Shown: in pieces, positions 1-64,000 of the stretch
Layout of the letters: every line of letters starts with the position of its first letter
How positions within the stretch are numbered: the stretch's first letter is position 1
Origin: Saprospiraceae bacterium
Lineage (GTDB): Bacteria > Bacteroidota > Bacteroidia > Chitinophagales > Saprospiraceae
Direction of reading: 5' to 3'
Assembly (NCBI GenBank): GCA_030729925.1
Contig: JANQWK010000094.1
Span: forward strand, 1-64,000
DNA: 64,000 nucleotides
Made by a program: the position numbers and the translations under genes
The notes under the pieces: model-generated
What the model saw: the letters and a program-made list of their open reading frames with translations, nothing else
Told to the model about the DNA's origin: nothing
The model's database searches: none

Positions 1-53
1 TGCACCTGATTACCCCTATTAATACCCCGACATCCAGAAAAGTAACCTCGCTT
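1..53 (+). repeat. REP-like element copy 1 (cut by window edge)
   Basis: Only the last ten bases of the palindrome are inside the window. They are followed by the conserved right arm, with TATTAATACC at about 17-26 and GTAACC at 42-47. The spacing of 31 nt from palindrome to GTAACC is the same as in other copies. It lies on the 3' side of the minus-strand DUF5916 gene, beyond a separate inverted repeat. Confidence 0.85.
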
Positions 54-8730: not shown

Positions 8731-8822
8731 GCTTGAGGTATTAATAAGGGTAATCAGGTGCAAGGCACTTTAAGGTGCCTTGCACCTGATTAGTAAATCA
8801 TTGAATTTCAAAATTTTAAACC
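8716..8822 (-). repeat. REP-like element copy 2 (reverse orientation)
   Basis: The palindrome is 8753-8790. In element orientation the right arm runs from 8752 down to GTAACT at 8721-8716, 31 nt from the palindrome, with TTATTAATACC just outside it. The AT-rich left arm is 8791-8820. The core has one mismatch (AAAGTG in place of AAGGTG), as in copies 6 and 8. The copy lies in the divergent region between nadE and dnaX, with the left arm facing dnaX. Confidence 0.9.
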
Positions 8823-13797: not shown

Positions 13798-13913
13798 GTA
13801 TTCAAGATATTGATTTTTAATATTTTGTAAATCAGGTGGAAGCCACCTTAAGGTGCCTTCCACCTGATTACCCTTATTAATACCTCCACATCCAAAAACG
13901 TAACCACCTATTG
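13798..13913 (+). repeat. REP-like element copy 3
   Basis: The AT-rich left arm (13798-13830) begins just after the helicase stop codon. The palindrome is 13831-13868, and the right arm has TTATTAATACC and GTAACC at 13900-13905. The outer stem uses the GGA/TCC pair, and the core (GAAGCCACC against GGTGCCTTC) is identical to copy 10 in element orientation. The rest of the gap up to atpB holds no gene I can recognise. Confidence 0.92.
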
Positions 13914-24925: not shown

Positions 24926-25004
24926 ATCAGGTGGAAGGCACCTTAAGGTGCCTTCCACCTGATTACCCTTATTAATCCCCCGACGACGATAAAGGTAACC
25001 TTGA
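24926..25004 (+). repeat. REP-like element copy 4
   Basis: The palindrome 24926-24963 is the only perfect one among the nine complete copies (half-site ATCAGGTGGAAGGCACCTT). The right arm has TTATTAATCCC and GTAACC at 24995-25000. The left arm is less well kept here. The copy lies between the convergent ends of the membrane genes at 24838 and 25281. Confidence 0.92.
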
Positions 25005-38400: not shown

Positions 38401-38476
38401 ACAGGTGGAAGGCACCTTAAGGTGACTTGCACCTGATTACCTTTTGTTAATCCCATTTCTCCCCTCGGAGGTAACC
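38401..38476 (+). repeat. REP-like element copy 5 (most diverged)
   Basis: The near-palindrome is 38401-38437, with the right arm TACCTTTTGTTAATCCC and GTAACC at 38471-38476 (33 nt away). The left half carries GGTGGAAGG, while the right half ends CTTGCACC, so the outer stem mixes the two sequence classes and does not pair there. It lies between fdhD and the esterase gene. Confidence 0.85.
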
Positions 38477-40413: not shown

Positions 40414-42618
40414 ATGAAAAATACTTGGATCGTTCCCTTGCTCGTCGCTTTTTTTGCCCTTGTGCGGCTGCATGCACAAGAGCAGCCCGACCCTTTATTT
40501 GTGGCAAAAATTGCCCAACCCATCACCTTAGATGGCAACCTGGATGAACCAGCGTGGCAGAGGAGCAAGCCAGCCGATAATTTTTGGAATTATTTCCCCA
40601 ATGATACCTCCAGAGCGAGTTATCAGACGGAAATTTATATGTTGTACGACGACAAGAACCTGTACATCGGCGCCAAATGTTACGCCGCAGGTCAAAATTA
40701 CATCACACCTTCCCTACGCAGGGATTTTCGAGCCGGCGGAAACGATAACCTGACCTTCCTTTTTGATCCATTTACGGATCAGACCAATGCTTTCGTTTTT
40801 GGTATCAACCCTTTTGGCGTGATGCGGGAAGCGCTGGTCGCTAACGGCGGGAGGGATTTCAGGACGGACTGGGACGATTCCTGGGACAACAAATGGACCG
40901 GTACTTCCAGTATCCATGATGGTTACTGGTCCTGCGAAATTGCCATACCGTTTACCACGCTTCGATATACCGAGGGGAGCACGGAGTGGCGATTCAACAG
41001 CTATCGCTTCGATACCCAGTCCAATTCGAATTCTACCTGGGCGCGCATACCGCGCAATCAGATCATCATGGATCTCGGCTATATGGGTCGGATGATATGG
41101 GAACAACCTCTGCGCAAACCGGGAGCGAATTTTTCGCTAATTCCTTACGTGGCTGCATCGCATACCCAGGAATTTGATCCGGAGCGCATGGATCCCGTCC
41201 TACAATTAAATGCAGGTGGCGATGCCAAAATAGGGGTCACGCCCGGACTTAACCTCGATCTGACCATCAATCCCGATTTTTCGCAGGTGGAAGTTGATCA
41301 ACAGGTAACCAACCTGGATCGGTTTGAGATATTTTTCCCGGAAAGAAGGCAGTTTTTCCTCGAAAATGCCGACCTCTTTTCCGGTTTTGGGACGGCTAGG
41401 GCTAATCCTTTTTTTTCCCGAAGGATAGGCATTGCTCAGGACACCTCTACAGGAAATAATATCCAGAATCCCATCTTGTTCGGCGCACGGCTGAGTGGCA
41501 AACTCGACAACTATTGGCGCCTGGGGATTTTGAACATGCAAACGGCGGCTGACGCCGAAAACGACCTTCCGAGTTTTAACTATGCTGTGGCCGCAGTGCA
41601 GCGCAGGATCGGCATGCGATCCAATGTAGGGGTTATTTTTGTCAATAAGGAGTCTTTTGGTTCCGAGGATGACAATGGCACCTACGATCCTTATAACCGG
41701 ACATTCGGGTTGGACTACAACCTGGCTTCGAGCGACAATTCCTGGATAGGCAAGGCGTATCTGCACCGGTCTTTTTCTGCAACAGAAAAAGAGCAACCCT
41801 TTTCACATGGATTTCGCCTGCTGCACCAGCAAAGACCTTTTCGGGTAGAGTGGAACCACCAGTGGATAGGTGAGGGTTTTGATGCCCAAGTGGGGTTTGT
41901 ACCCAGGTCCAATTTTTTCAACATCAACCCAAGTGCTAATTTGTTTTACTATCCAGAAAATGGATGGATCAATAGACACGGTCCGGGGGTGGAAGTATTG
42001 TTTTTCTGGCAGCCGGAACTCGGCAAAACGGACCATCAGTTTGCTTTTGGGTGGGAGGCTAATTTTGCCAATTCGGCGGATGGCAATATCCGGATCAACC
42101 ACAACTATACTTATTTGTTTGAGCCATTTGATCCCAGTGGGATTGGCGATCAGGAACTGGCCAGTGGTACGAGTTACAGCTACATCAACGTAGAGGGGCG
42201 CTATCAGTCGGACCGACGCAAAGTGATTACCTACGAGGTCAACCCCACCTTCGGGCAGTTTTACAATGGGAACCGGTATGGATTAAGTGGGCAGGTTGCC
42301 TACCGATACCAGCCTTATGGTTCTGTGGCCATTAACTTCAACTATAACTATATAGATCTGCCCCGGCCGTTTCAAAGCAGCAGTCTCGTATTGATAGGGC
42401 CGAGGGTGGACATGACCTTTACCAAGAATATTTTTCTGACCACTTTCTTTCAATATAACAACCAAATAGATAACTTCAACATTAATGCCCGATTCCAGTG
42501 GCGATTCGCTCCGGTATCCGATTTTTTTCTGGTTTATACCGACAACTATTACGCCAGCGACTTTCAGGGGAAAAACAGGGCTATTATTGCGAAACTGACT
42601 TACTGGCTTAATTTATAG
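40414..42618 (+). CDS. CBM9-like / DUF5916 outer-membrane protein (paralogue 2)
   Basis: The 734-residue protein has a signal peptide, a CBM9/DOMON-like domain at about residues 30-215 (ITLDGNLDEPAWQRS), and the DUF5916 core with NPDFSQVEVDQQVTNL and FFPERRQFFLENADLF, followed by barrel-like strands ending in a terminal aromatic/Leu segment. It lies 35 nt upstream of a close paralogue. The promoter is unclear; TAAATTTA near 40400 is a one-mismatch -7 box. Confidence 0.88.
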   Translation: MKNTWIVPLLVAFFALVRLHAQEQPDPLFVAKIAQPITLDGNLDEPAWQRSKPADNFWNYFPNDTSRASYQTEIYMLYDDKNLYIGAKCYAAGQNYITPSLRRDFRAGGNDNLTFLFDPFTDQTNAFVFGINPFGVMREALVANGGRDFRTDWDDSWDNKWTGTSSIHDGYWSCEIAIPFTTLRYTEGSTEWRFNSYRFDTQSNSNSTWARIPRNQIIMDLGYMGRMIWEQPLRKPGANFSLIPYVAASHTQEFDPERMDPVLQLNAGGDAKIGVTPGLNLDLTINPDFSQVEVDQQVTNLDRFEIFFPERRQFFLENADLFSGFGTARANPFFSRRIGIAQDTSTGNNIQNPILFGARLSGKLDNYWRLGILNMQTAADAENDLPSFNYAVAAVQRRIGMRSNVGVIFVNKESFGSEDDNGTYDPYNRTFGLDYNLASSDNSWIGKAYLHRSFSATEKEQPFSHGFRLLHQQRPFRVEWNHQWIGEGFDAQVGFVPRSNFFNINPSANLFYYPENGWINRHGPGVEVLFFWQPELGKTDHQFAFGWEANFANSADGNIRINHNYTYLFEPFDPSGIGDQELASGTSYSYINVEGRYQSDRRKVITYEVNPTFGQFYNGNRYGLSGQVAYRYQPYGSVAINFNYNYIDLPRPFQSSSLVLIGPRVDMTFTKNIFLTTFFQYNNQIDNFNINARFQWRFAPVSDFFLVYTDNYYASDFQGKNRAIIAKLTYWLNL

Positions 42619-42653
42619 GCCGGATTTTAGCTTACTAAAAAACCAACACATCC

Positions 42654-44885
42654 ATGAAGTTTGCGAAAGCTTTGCTCTTCCTTTGCTTTTCTCTGCTCTT
42701 TAGTTTTGTCTCCCGCAGCCAATCCCCCGAGTTCGATAAATACCGCCAAAATCCCATTTTCCTGAAAAAGACCAACCAGACCATTGTTTTGGATGGCAAT
42801 GTGGACGAACCTGCCTGGTTTGAAGGCCAGGGAGCCAAAAATTATTGGGAATATCGCCCTTCAGATACCATGCAGACGGCTTACCAAACGGAGCTCTACA
42901 TGACCTTTGACGAGGAATTTTTGTACATCGCGGCGATCTGTCATGCGCCGGGCAATAAATTTGTGACCCACTCTTATCGGAGAGATTACCAGTCCAGCGG
43001 CAATGACCACATTGCTTTTGTGATTGACCCATTCAACGACAACACCAATGCTTTTCTCTTTGGCATTACTCCTTACGGCGTAACCCGGGAGGGCTTGATC
43101 TCCGGTGGGGGCAGAAATTTCCAGCGGGGTTGGGATATATCCTGGGACAACAAATGGAACGGGGTCGCAAAGATCCACGACAAGTTCTGGACAGCTGAGC
43201 TGGCTATTCCGTTTACTACCCTCCGGTTTTCAGAAGGCAGCAGTGAATGGAATTTTAACTCGTACCGAATGGACACCCAGTCGAGTACCCAGTCGAGTTG
43301 GACCCGGATTCCTACCAACCAGTTGCCGCTCAACTTGGGGTATATGGGTAAGATGATCTGGGAAGAACCCCTCAAAAAACCAGGCGCCAACATGTCGCTT
43401 ATTCCGTATGTCAGCGCGGGAGGACTAAAAAATCACGAAGAAGGAACGGATCAGGTCAATAATCTCGGATTCGGAGCCGATGTAAAAATTGGGGTCTCTT
43501 CAGGGCTTAACCTGGATCTTACGGTGAATCCAGATTTTTCGCAGGTGGAAGTAGATCAGCAACAGACCAACCTCGGTCGCTTCGAACTATTTTTTCCTGA
43601 AAGGAGACAATTTTTTCTCGAAAACGCCGACCTCTTTTCCGGTTTTGGGGATTCGCGGATCAATCCTTTCTTTTCCCGAAGGGTAGGTATCAAAAGTGGC
43701 GAAAGCATTCCTATCTACGGCGGAGCCAGGCTCAGTGGAAAAATCAACGACAATTGGCGGGTAGGTATTTTGAATATGCAAACAGCCGGCAAGGATGATT
43801 TTACGGACGAGGAAACCATTTATGAGCCTTCCTATAACTATATGGTGGCCGCCTTGCAGCGCAAATTGTTTGCCCAGTCGAATATTGGCGTGATCTTCGT
43901 CAACAAACAAACTTTTGAAAACCTGGAAGACTACACGGATATTTCAACCTTTAACAGGGTCCTTGGCATAGATTACAACCTGGCTTCCGGCGACAACCGC
44001 TGGACAGGTAAGGCGTTTGTGCACCGGGAGATCAAGGAACAATACGAGGAACACGACAAAATGCCCTTTGCGCACGGATTCAACTTAGGCTATCGAGTCA
44101 GGGCGTTTTCGGCCGAGTGGGAACACCAGTGGGTAAGTGCGGATTACCGCCCGGAGGTGGGTTTTGTGCCCCGGAATGATTTTTACCGGATCAATCCCCG
44201 TGCAGAATGGTTTTTCTACCCCAAAAATCCCAAAATTGTAAACCTCAACCCGGAGTTCAGCGCCAGGGTCTTCTGGAACCCCGAAGTCGGAAAAACCGAC
44301 CACGAGTACCAGGCCAGTTTTTCTATCCAATACACCAATGAGAGTCGGCTGAACTTTTCTTTTAGCAATGAATACACGTATTTGTTCGAGGAATTTAATC
44401 CAACCCGCTTGGGAGACGTGTACCTGGCTGCCGAAACAGATTATACCTATTCCTCCGGGAGCATTTCCTATAACTCGGATCGCAGAAAACCCTGGCAGAT
44501 TCAAATGCGGGCGGAATATGGCCAGTTTTATAATGGCACCAAGCTGACGCTGGATGGTTCCCTTTCCTTCAGAAAACAGCCCTACATCGCCATCGCAATG
44601 AATTACAACTACAACCATATCGAAATGCCGGCTCCTTTTCTGCCGACCGACCTGATCCTTTTGGGGCCAAGAATTGATCTTACCTTTACAAAGAACCTTT
44701 TCTGGACGACGTTTTTTCAGTACAACAAACAGGTGGACAACATCAACCTGAACACCCGTCTCCAATGGCGCTTTGCCCCCGTTTCAGATTTCTTCCTGGT
44801 TTATACCGATAACTATTTTGCCAATGATTTTCTCATCCGAAATAGGGCATTGGTCGCCAAATTGACCTATTGGCTGAATATTTGA
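42654..44885 (+). CDS. CBM9-like / DUF5916 outer-membrane protein (paralogue 3)
   Basis: The 743-residue protein has the same layout as its neighbour: signal peptide (about 1-22), IVLDGNVDEPAWFEG, NPDFSQVEVDQQQTNL, and FFPERRQFFLENADLF. The two proteins share most motifs and the same C-terminal pattern, so they arose by tandem duplication and are probably one operon. REP copy 6 begins right after the stop codon. Confidence 0.88.
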   Translation: MKFAKALLFLCFSLLFSFVSRSQSPEFDKYRQNPIFLKKTNQTIVLDGNVDEPAWFEGQGAKNYWEYRPSDTMQTAYQTELYMTFDEEFLYIAAICHAPGNKFVTHSYRRDYQSSGNDHIAFVIDPFNDNTNAFLFGITPYGVTREGLISGGGRNFQRGWDISWDNKWNGVAKIHDKFWTAELAIPFTTLRFSEGSSEWNFNSYRMDTQSSTQSSWTRIPTNQLPLNLGYMGKMIWEEPLKKPGANMSLIPYVSAGGLKNHEEGTDQVNNLGFGADVKIGVSSGLNLDLTVNPDFSQVEVDQQQTNLGRFELFFPERRQFFLENADLFSGFGDSRINPFFSRRVGIKSGESIPIYGGARLSGKINDNWRVGILNMQTAGKDDFTDEETIYEPSYNYMVAALQRKLFAQSNIGVIFVNKQTFENLEDYTDISTFNRVLGIDYNLASGDNRWTGKAFVHREIKEQYEEHDKMPFAHGFNLGYRVRAFSAEWEHQWVSADYRPEVGFVPRNDFYRINPRAEWFFYPKNPKIVNLNPEFSARVFWNPEVGKTDHEYQASFSIQYTNESRLNFSFSNEYTYLFEEFNPTRLGDVYLAAETDYTYSSGSISYNSDRRKPWQIQMRAEYGQFYNGTKLTLDGSLSFRKQPYIAIAMNYNYNHIEMPAPFLPTDLILLGPRIDLTFTKNLFWTTFFQYNKQVDNINLNTRLQWRFAPVSDFFLVYTDNYFANDFLIRNRALVAKLTYWLNI

Positions 44886-44894
44886 GGCGGTTTT

Positions 44895-45010
44895 TTGGGT
44901 TTAAATATTTGATTTTCAATATTTTAAAATACAGGTGCAAGGCACCTTAAAGTGCCTTGCACCTGATATACCCTTATTAGTACCTCCACCCCCCTCAATC
45001 GTAACCACTT
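44895..45010 (+). repeat. REP-like element copy 6
   Basis: The AT-rich left arm (about 44900-44929) follows the DUF5916 stop codon. The palindrome is 44930-44967 with core mismatch AAAGTG. The right arm has TTATTAGTACC and GTAACC at 45001-45006. Confidence 0.92.
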
Positions 45011-49723: not shown

Positions 49724-49835
49724 GGTTACTTTTTTGAATGTCGGGGTATTAATAGGGGTAATCAGGTGCAAGCCACCTTAAGGTGCCTTGCACCTGATGT
49801 TTAAAATATTGATATTCAAAATTTTAAATAAATTA
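49724..49835 (-). repeat. REP-like element copy 7 (reverse orientation)
   Basis: The palindrome is 49761-49798. In element orientation, GTAACC is at 49729-49724, 31 nt from it. The AT-rich left arm (49799-49830) faces kynA. Its core has one mismatch (GGTGGCTT). The remainder of 49541-49968 has a small GAGGT/ACCTC hairpin near 49657-49669 and no gene. Confidence 0.92.
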
Positions 49836-54784: not shown

Positions 54785-54900
54785 TTTTGATTCAATATTT
54801 TGAAAATCAATGCTTTATAGCTCAGGTGCAAGGCACCTTAAAGTGCCTTGCACCTGATTACCCTTATTAATTCCACTACTCCCCCCAAACGTAACCACTT
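54785..54900 (+). repeat. REP-like element copy 8
   Basis: The left arm (54785-54820) contains a small self-complementary AT segment. The palindrome is 54821-54858 with core mismatch AAAGTG. The right arm has TTATTAATTCC and GTAACC at 54891-54896. The rest of the gap to the Lrp-like gene (to 55081) shows only a possible promoter. Confidence 0.92.
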
Positions 54901-63027: not shown

Positions 63028-63149
63028 GGCGAAGAACAGAACTGCTAGGTTGGGCTATACAACCTGGGTAATCCAGCAATTTTGTAGGATGGTTTTTTGA
63101 TGGAGATTTTTGATTGAGATTTGATGGGAATTTAATTAAGGTTTTGATT

Positions 63150-63247
63150 AATAGTGTTTTGTGAATCAGGTGCAAGCCACCTTAAGGTGACTTGCACCTA
63201 GATTACCCTTATTAATACCCCGACATCTGAAAAAGTAACCTCCCTTT
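63150..63247 (+). repeat. REP-like element copy 9
   Basis: The palindrome is 63165-63203 and carries one extra A in the right outer arm (CACCTAGAT). The right arm has TTATTAATACC and GTAACC at 63235-63240. It faces copy 10 with 299 nt between palindrome edge and right arm. That stretch holds no recognisable gene. Confidence 0.9.
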
Positions 63248-63502
63248 ACGGCAAATTGAGTGCCTAAGTACTAAATAGATATCCCTGAAAGTATGATAAC
63301 TTCTGATTTACCGCTACACGAAAAATGGAACCTGGATATGAAAAACAGTTCAAATGCCTGCAAGTATCCTAATCACAAGATCAAGTAACTATCCGAGGCT
63401 TTACATTGGTGTTGCCTGAAACGGAGGTCATCCTAAACTTGAGCTGCTTCCCCTCCTGCAACAAGTGTTTTCCGAAAAATGAAAAAAAGGTGGTTCAAAG
63501 GT

Positions 63503-63610
63503 GGTTACGTTTGGTGGGGGAAAGGTATTAATAACCGATAATCAGGTGGAAGGCACCTTAAGGTGGCTTCCACCTGATTCATAAAACATTATTTTTCAAC
63601 AATTTAAACA
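63503..63610 (-). repeat. REP-like element copy 10, directly upstream of the transposase gene
   Basis: The palindrome is 63541-63578. In element orientation, GTAACC is at 63508-63503, 32 nt from it, with TTATTAATACC between. The AT-rich left arm (63579-63610) ends 8 nt before the transposase ATG. The palindrome core equals that of copy 3. Confidence 0.92.
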
Positions 63611-63617
63611 CGAAAAA

Positions 63618-64000
63618 ATGAAATACCAATCCAACCAAATCTACCACATGTACAACCAGGGCAACAATCGGCAACCGATCTTTTTTGAAGATGCCAACTA
63701 TCATTATTTTCTCCAGAAGGTTAAAAAATACCTCCTTCCCGTAGCGGACATTTTGTGTTATTGCCTGATGCCCAATCATTTTCACTTCTTGCTGGTTCCC
63801 AATGAAGAAGCGATTACTCCGGGCAAACTGATCAAGCCCAGACAAATGGTACTAGAATTACAAGGTACAGAAGCACTTCCTTTTGTCCTTTACGAGCGAC
63901 AGCAAAAAATCAGTCAGGCAGTTGGGGAACTCCTGAGTAGTTATACCAAAGCCATCAACAAGCGATACGAAAGAAGTGGCTCGCTGTTCAGGAGCAAGAC
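63618..64000 (+). CDS. Y1/HUH transposase of the REP-associated (RAYT) type, cut by window end
   Basis: The frame is open from the ATG at 63618 to the window edge (127 complete codons). Residues 48-58 give CYCLMPNHFHFLL with the metal-binding H54-x-H56 of the Y1 transposase family. Residues 107-127 give SSYTKAINKRYERSGSLFRSK, the family's tyrosine segment (Y109) and the typical GSLFRSK. The protein acts on single-stranded DNA hairpins by a 5'-phosphotyrosine link. The gene starts 39 nt from REP copy 10, as RAYT genes do in REPtrons of Proteobacteria. IS200/IS605-type transposases are related, but this form with an extended segment between HxH and Tyr fits RAYT better. Confidence 0.85.
   Translation, partial: MKYQSNQIYHMYNQGNNRQPIFFEDANYHYFLQKVKKYLLPVADILCYCLMPNHFHFLLVPNEEAITPGKLIKPRQMVLELQGTEALPFVLYERQQKISQAVGELLSSYTKAINKRYERSGSLFRSK

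Follow-up and report, generated by a model that had tools for sequence, protein, structure and literature searches.

A single-copy RAYT gene and a genome-specific repeat of about 105 nt form a probable REPtron in a Saprospiraceae bacterium

The draft genome of this Saprospiraceae bacterium (3.74 Mb, 104 contigs) very probably harbors a REPtron, consisting of a single-copy RAYT gene for an HUH/Y1 single-stranded DNA endonuclease and a cognate, non-autonomous repeat of ~105 nt. The window analyzed was the whole stretch of 64,000 nt at the start of one contig (genome G000, C94:1-64000). A sequence-only reading of this window had proposed a likely Bacteroidota REPtron, and the proposal was supported by dispersal of the repeat, a match to a RAYT HMM, the modeled fold, and a phylogenetic tree. 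The arrangement is indeed that of a REPtron; however, the accompanying view that such systems are known mostly from Proteobacteria needs correction, since REPtrons in Bacteroidetes have already been reported (Quentin et al. 2018, PMC6006769).

The RAYT locus and its repeat unit

The RAYT (TnpA-REP) gene ends 247 nt beyond the window and encodes a product of 209 aa. It is present once in the genome, and no TnpB gene lies next to it. The proposed juxtaposition of a Y1/HUH gene with an inverted pair of repeats was confirmed: the start codon of RAYT lies 38 nt past the end of the palindrome at 63540-63579 and 11 nt past the end of the AT-rich dyad arm of the same copy (copy B), and copy A, inverted relative to copy B, lies 344 nt upstream. 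The inverted copy that had been envisaged downstream of the gene was not found when the contig was extended as far as an N gap, which begins ~257 nt past the stop codon. This scaffold gap of ~100 N (L002 4505-4604, on C94) is directly downstream of RAYT and is followed by an unrelated gene. Because pieces of the repeat are overrepresented at contig ends, a downstream copy could be hidden in the gap. Elsewhere in L002 (10166-10838), a small two-gene pair resembles a RelE/HigB-type toxin with an HTH antitoxin, and positions 41215-44832 of the window hold a diverged tandem duplication, probably of a gene, with a spacing of ~2258 nt.

The window contains nine full copies of the repeat and one truncated at the window start. 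Besides the pair at the gene, eight further copies had been counted from the sequence alone; all eight were recovered, the truncated one among them. The core CACCTTAAGGTG with ≤2 mismatches had 10 matches in the window versus 2.1 expected, and none of 100 shuffles reached 10. Across the genome, the palindrome occurs in at least 205 copies. Pieces of the repeat were found at 13 of 49 contig starts, as compared with 64 of 6001 internal windows, and the count of 205 is therefore a lower bound.

Table 1. Positions of the RAYT gene and of repeat copies in the window
Feature	Position	Strand	Remarks
RAYT/TnpA-REP gene	63618..64000	+	continues to C94:64247; residues 1-127 of 209 inside window
Repeat copy A	63137..63240	+	AT-rich dyad arm; palindrome 63168-63199; right arm ends GTAACC 63235-63240
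Repeat copy B, inverted	63503..63606	-	GGTTAC 63503-63508; palindrome 63544-63575; AT-rich dyad arm 63576-63606
Right arm of copy cut by window start	1..46	+	
Dispersed copy, palindrome	8756..8787	-	
Dispersed copy, palindrome	13834..13865	+	
Dispersed copy, palindrome	24929..24960	+	
Dispersed copy, palindrome	38403..38434	+	congener's orthologous site empty
Dispersed copy, palindrome	44933..44964	+	congener's orthologous site empty
Dispersed copy, palindrome	49764..49795	-	congener intergenic region 110 nt shorter, without copy
Dispersed copy, palindrome	54824..54855	+	

Alignment of 47-79 copies, drawn from ~1.03 Mb of the 3.74-Mb genome, revealed an asymmetric unit of ~105 nt. Its parts are, in order, an A/T tract, the dyad YAANNNNTTGANNNTCAANNNNTTR (also denoted TTGANNNTCAA), the 32-nt palindrome AGGTGSAAGNCACCTTAAGGTGNCTTSCACCT, GATTACCCTTATTAATACC, and GTAACC. 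The A/T tract at -42 to -37 reads A5 in 25 and T5 in 26 of 74 copies. In 70/74 copies, the distance from the 32-nt palindrome to the start of GTAAC is 34-36 nt, which corresponds to the ~31 nt noted before for a 38-nt version of the palindrome. Within 1.03 Mb, 16 of 17 exact dyads lay inside units; parts of the unit were not found apart, and right arms lacking a complete palindrome were contig edges or chance matches. No GT[AG]G was present 5′ of the hairpin foot, which on one strand reads GGTAATC; GTGG occurred only within the stem of G-C variants (26/79 copies). Close pairs of repeats (<500 nt apart) numbered only three in the first set of ~50 copies. A search of Rfam with the repeat gave no match above gathering score.

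Fourteen of the 16 stem pairs were kept in ~95-100% of 79 copies, and pair 6/27 was C-G in 49, G-C in 26, and mismatched in 4. The stem is under pairing constraint. Most copies (58/79) had exactly one stem mismatch and 14 had none; the mismatch was at pair 10/23 in 44 copies and at pair 14/19 in 19, and never at both (Fisher test, 0/44 vs. 19/35, p=5e-9). A check of this exclusion on a tree of the flanks gave a median p of 0.25; the tree was too weak to set shared ancestry aside. Cleavage of E. coli REPs needs a bulge in the stem (PMC8266576); by analogy, the one-mismatch rule may perhaps reflect the same requirement met in two ways, the alternative being common ancestry.

Pairing of the inner four-base spacers of the dyad in the AT-rich arm was not above chance, and these positions showed no covariation. 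Thus, the dyad looks like a double-strand protein site, and the idea that the arm forms a second hairpin was rejected. The IHF consensus of E. coli is WATCAANNNNTTR. At a fixed position in the dyad, this consensus was matched at ≥8/9 in the forward direction in 44 and in reverse in 46 of 67 copies; shuffled arms reached ≥8/9 anywhere in 3/67 (forward) and 6/67 (reverse). The dyad would accordingly read as two candidate IHF sites back to back, with the reservation that the consensus comes from E. coli and that the ligand could be some other dimeric protein. A distance of 9 bp separates the conserved TT and AA steps of the dyad, as it does the two kinks in IHF/HU complexes. Two DNABII proteins, one HU-like and one IHF-like, are encoded in the genome, and a symmetric dyad would suit homodimers of either.

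Cognate pairing and genome range of the repeat

Palindromes with a score ≥12 within 250 nt of the gene were surveyed at 79 loci of RAYT homologues. Strong palindromes were present upstream of 26/74 homologues (35%) and downstream of 37/73 (51%), versus 23/1964 control windows (1.2%). The palindromes on the two sides of one homologue often matched each other, and they differed between genomes. In the three cases tested, the palindrome was confined to its own genome: the present one with its 205 copies, a second with 74 copies (only in G058 among 20 genomes), and a third with 12 (only in G125 among 18 genomes). At the top-scoring homologue (G020), the palindrome was found only at the gene within the 18 kb read. 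The link between enzyme and repeats, originally drawn from adjacency, now rests on family-wide statistics and three genome-specific palindromes.

In some relatives (L012, L016), REPs are inserted in frame inside the gene, as has been reported for TnpA-REP subclass 2.4 (PMC6006769); none was seen in the RAYT gene described here. Four homologues (L166, L167, L182, L169) have very long, near-perfect palindromes on one or both sides (pairing scores 37-48). Flavobacterial homologues (L189, L199-L203, L201, and others) have palindromes on motifs such as AACCTTNNAGGTT or AACTTTGACAAAGTT, which are another type of REP, apparently without GT[AG]G.

A different origin has to be weighed, in which the repeat is a MITE of another, lost transposon and the RAYT-like gene is an unrelated bystander near which two copies landed. 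An asymmetric unit of ~105 nt whose parts are not found separately differs from a bare REP, and the REPs of relatives do not show its extended architecture, all of which would suit a MITE. However, RAYT homologues across the phylum have palindromes at their sides, and in the cases tested such a palindrome is dispersed in no genome but its own. Moreover, the only Y1_Tnp match in the genome besides RAYT is a fragment of a gene of a different type (L003, on G000:C20, 4280-4644, minus strand), which ends YILNNPAKW and is cut by the contig end. We consider a MITE origin unlikely.

Abundant repeats in relatives lacking the transposase had been named as evidence against a REPtron; the outcome was favorable to it. 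The only congener (G073, genome 88% complete) has 0 copies of the repeat and also lacks the RAYT gene, and each of the 59 further relatives (60 searched with G073) has at most one chance match to the palindrome. The genes that flank RAYT sit on different contigs in G073, with other neighbors. Three orthologous sites in G073 are without the unit; the exact ends of the unit could not be read from these sites, because divergence of the intergenic DNA prevents an alignment.

All 40 repeat copies checked were intergenic, often near the 3′ ends of genes. They showed no orientation preference relative to genes (AT arm towards a gene end with the other arm facing a gene start in 12, the opposite way in 12), and a terminator or promoter element was rejected on this ground; no strand bias by GC skew was seen. 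The repeats might instead be selected functional chromosomal sites (nucleoid or transcription elements) that RAYT merely maintains, a role to which their intergenic positions near 3′ ends and the IHF-like dyad with A/T tracts would be suited. The lack of bias relative to genes or GC skew argues against such a role, and the absence of the repeat from the congener indicates that the genus does not need it. We regard this explanation as very unlikely.

The RAYT protein

The HuH motif of the protein is NHFH, and its histidines (H54/H56) are those identified beforehand. Tyr109, which had been put forward as the catalytic residue, is probably not that residue: Tyr163, which belongs to a YIHANP motif encoded past the window end, lines up with Tyr115 of E. 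coli RayT, whereas Tyr109, invariant in the family, is aligned with a Phe of that protein. Judging from this alignment, Tyr163 rather than Tyr109 is most likely the catalytic residue.

The NCBIfam REP_Tyr_transpos HMM matched the protein at E=2e-15, yet with a score below the curated cut-off; the Pfam Y1_Tnp match was marginal, and no IS200/IS605 model matched at E≤0.1. An AlphaFold2 model (pLDDT 85.7) had a RAYT-like fold, with 4er8 (E. coli RAYT with REP hairpin) as best match (E=1.3e-6), followed by IS608 and ISDra2. In a 109-row tree, in which long branches leave deep nodes unsure, the protein fell within an NHFH/YIHxNP family that spans Bacteroidota and is separated from IS200-like proteins (99/92), and named homologues put this family in Saprospiraceae and neighboring groups. 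By sequence and model, the protein is a single-copy, domesticated RAYT (TnpA-REP), separate from IS200/IS605 transposases. An autonomous IS200/IS605 element with multiplied ends, to which the HUH/Y1 catalytic fold common to RAYT and that family (IS608, ISDra2) would point, is highly improbable: the gene is single-copy without adjacent TnpB, and the protein does not group there by HMM, tree, or fold, a grouping that had been foreseen as a possible refutation.

GT[AG]G is common in REPtrons without being obligatory, and subclass 2.6 is without it (Quentin et al. 2018, PMC6006769). The guide-contact residues W94/Q95 of E. coli RayT, conserved in the region reading GTAG (PMC6006769), correspond to F124/R125 here, with F in 90/92 family members; the missing GT[AG]G foot fits this replacement. 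With subclass 2.4 (Bertels group 4; Bacteroidetes and Cyanobacteria), the protein shares NHFH (NH[IFV]H in that subclass), a long variable insert between beta3 and alphaC, and long REPs beside the gene. It has F-R and YIHANP instead of the WQ motif and YIxNNP of subclass 2.4, and its repeat differs in being a 105-nt asymmetric unit without a GT[AG]G foot. We have filed the protein on these motifs as a class 2 RAYT, subclass open; the system shows the principal features of REPtrons and a number of those of subclass 2.4, but WQ and GT[AG]G are absent.

Proposed mechanism and related systems

We propose that when the repeat is single-stranded, e.g. on the lagging strand, RAYT would bind the 32-nt hairpin, cleave nearby DNA through a 5′-phosphotyrosine at Tyr163, and assist in copying or transferring the unit to new intergenic positions. 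More speculatively, the AT-rich arm (YAANNNNTTGANNNTCAANNNNTTR plus A/T tract) might bind a homodimeric IHF/HU-type protein that bends DNA in the way of IHF at BIME-1/RIB of E. coli, and RAYT and the bending protein might regulate the gene through copy B, which lies immediately before the start codon.

In E. coli BIME-1, the DNA between the REPs binds IHF (PMC2817692). The E. coli system of RayT with REP/BIME-1 (RIB) and the present one are alike in the single-copy RAYT and the mismatch-interrupted stem, and the present unit has, by sequence match, a candidate IHF-type site adjoining the REP. They differ in that the unit described here has one palindrome with a symmetric dyad beside it and no GTAG. 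REPINs of Pseudomonas are likewise non-autonomous, dispersed, and dependent on one RAYT; however, they consist of two inverted REPs, whereas our units are single hairpins with arms and are not regularly paired. No description of the composite unit turned up in the literature searched, which does not prove it new.

A tentative extension is that the unit is a composite element of RAYT hairpin, symmetric homodimeric IHF-type site, and phased-TACC arm, in which bending by DNABII proteins would gate access of RAYT. With no greater confidence, the element can be viewed as paralleling the REP-IHF element of E. coli independently in Bacteroidota, and as relying on a guide different from GT[AG]G. Such recognition would possibly involve GTAA at the foot with the distal GTTAC, in the manner of IS608 guide and cleavage sequences.

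The mechanism by which RAYTs spread REPs is unsolved, and only a few proteobacterial enzymes have been studied biochemically. In the present system, the guide-reading residues are missing from the RAYT, and 200 cognate units make up a clean family. Together with two sharp sequence rules, the one stem mismatch and the IHF-like dyad, these traits would help to distinguish what is general in REP recognition.
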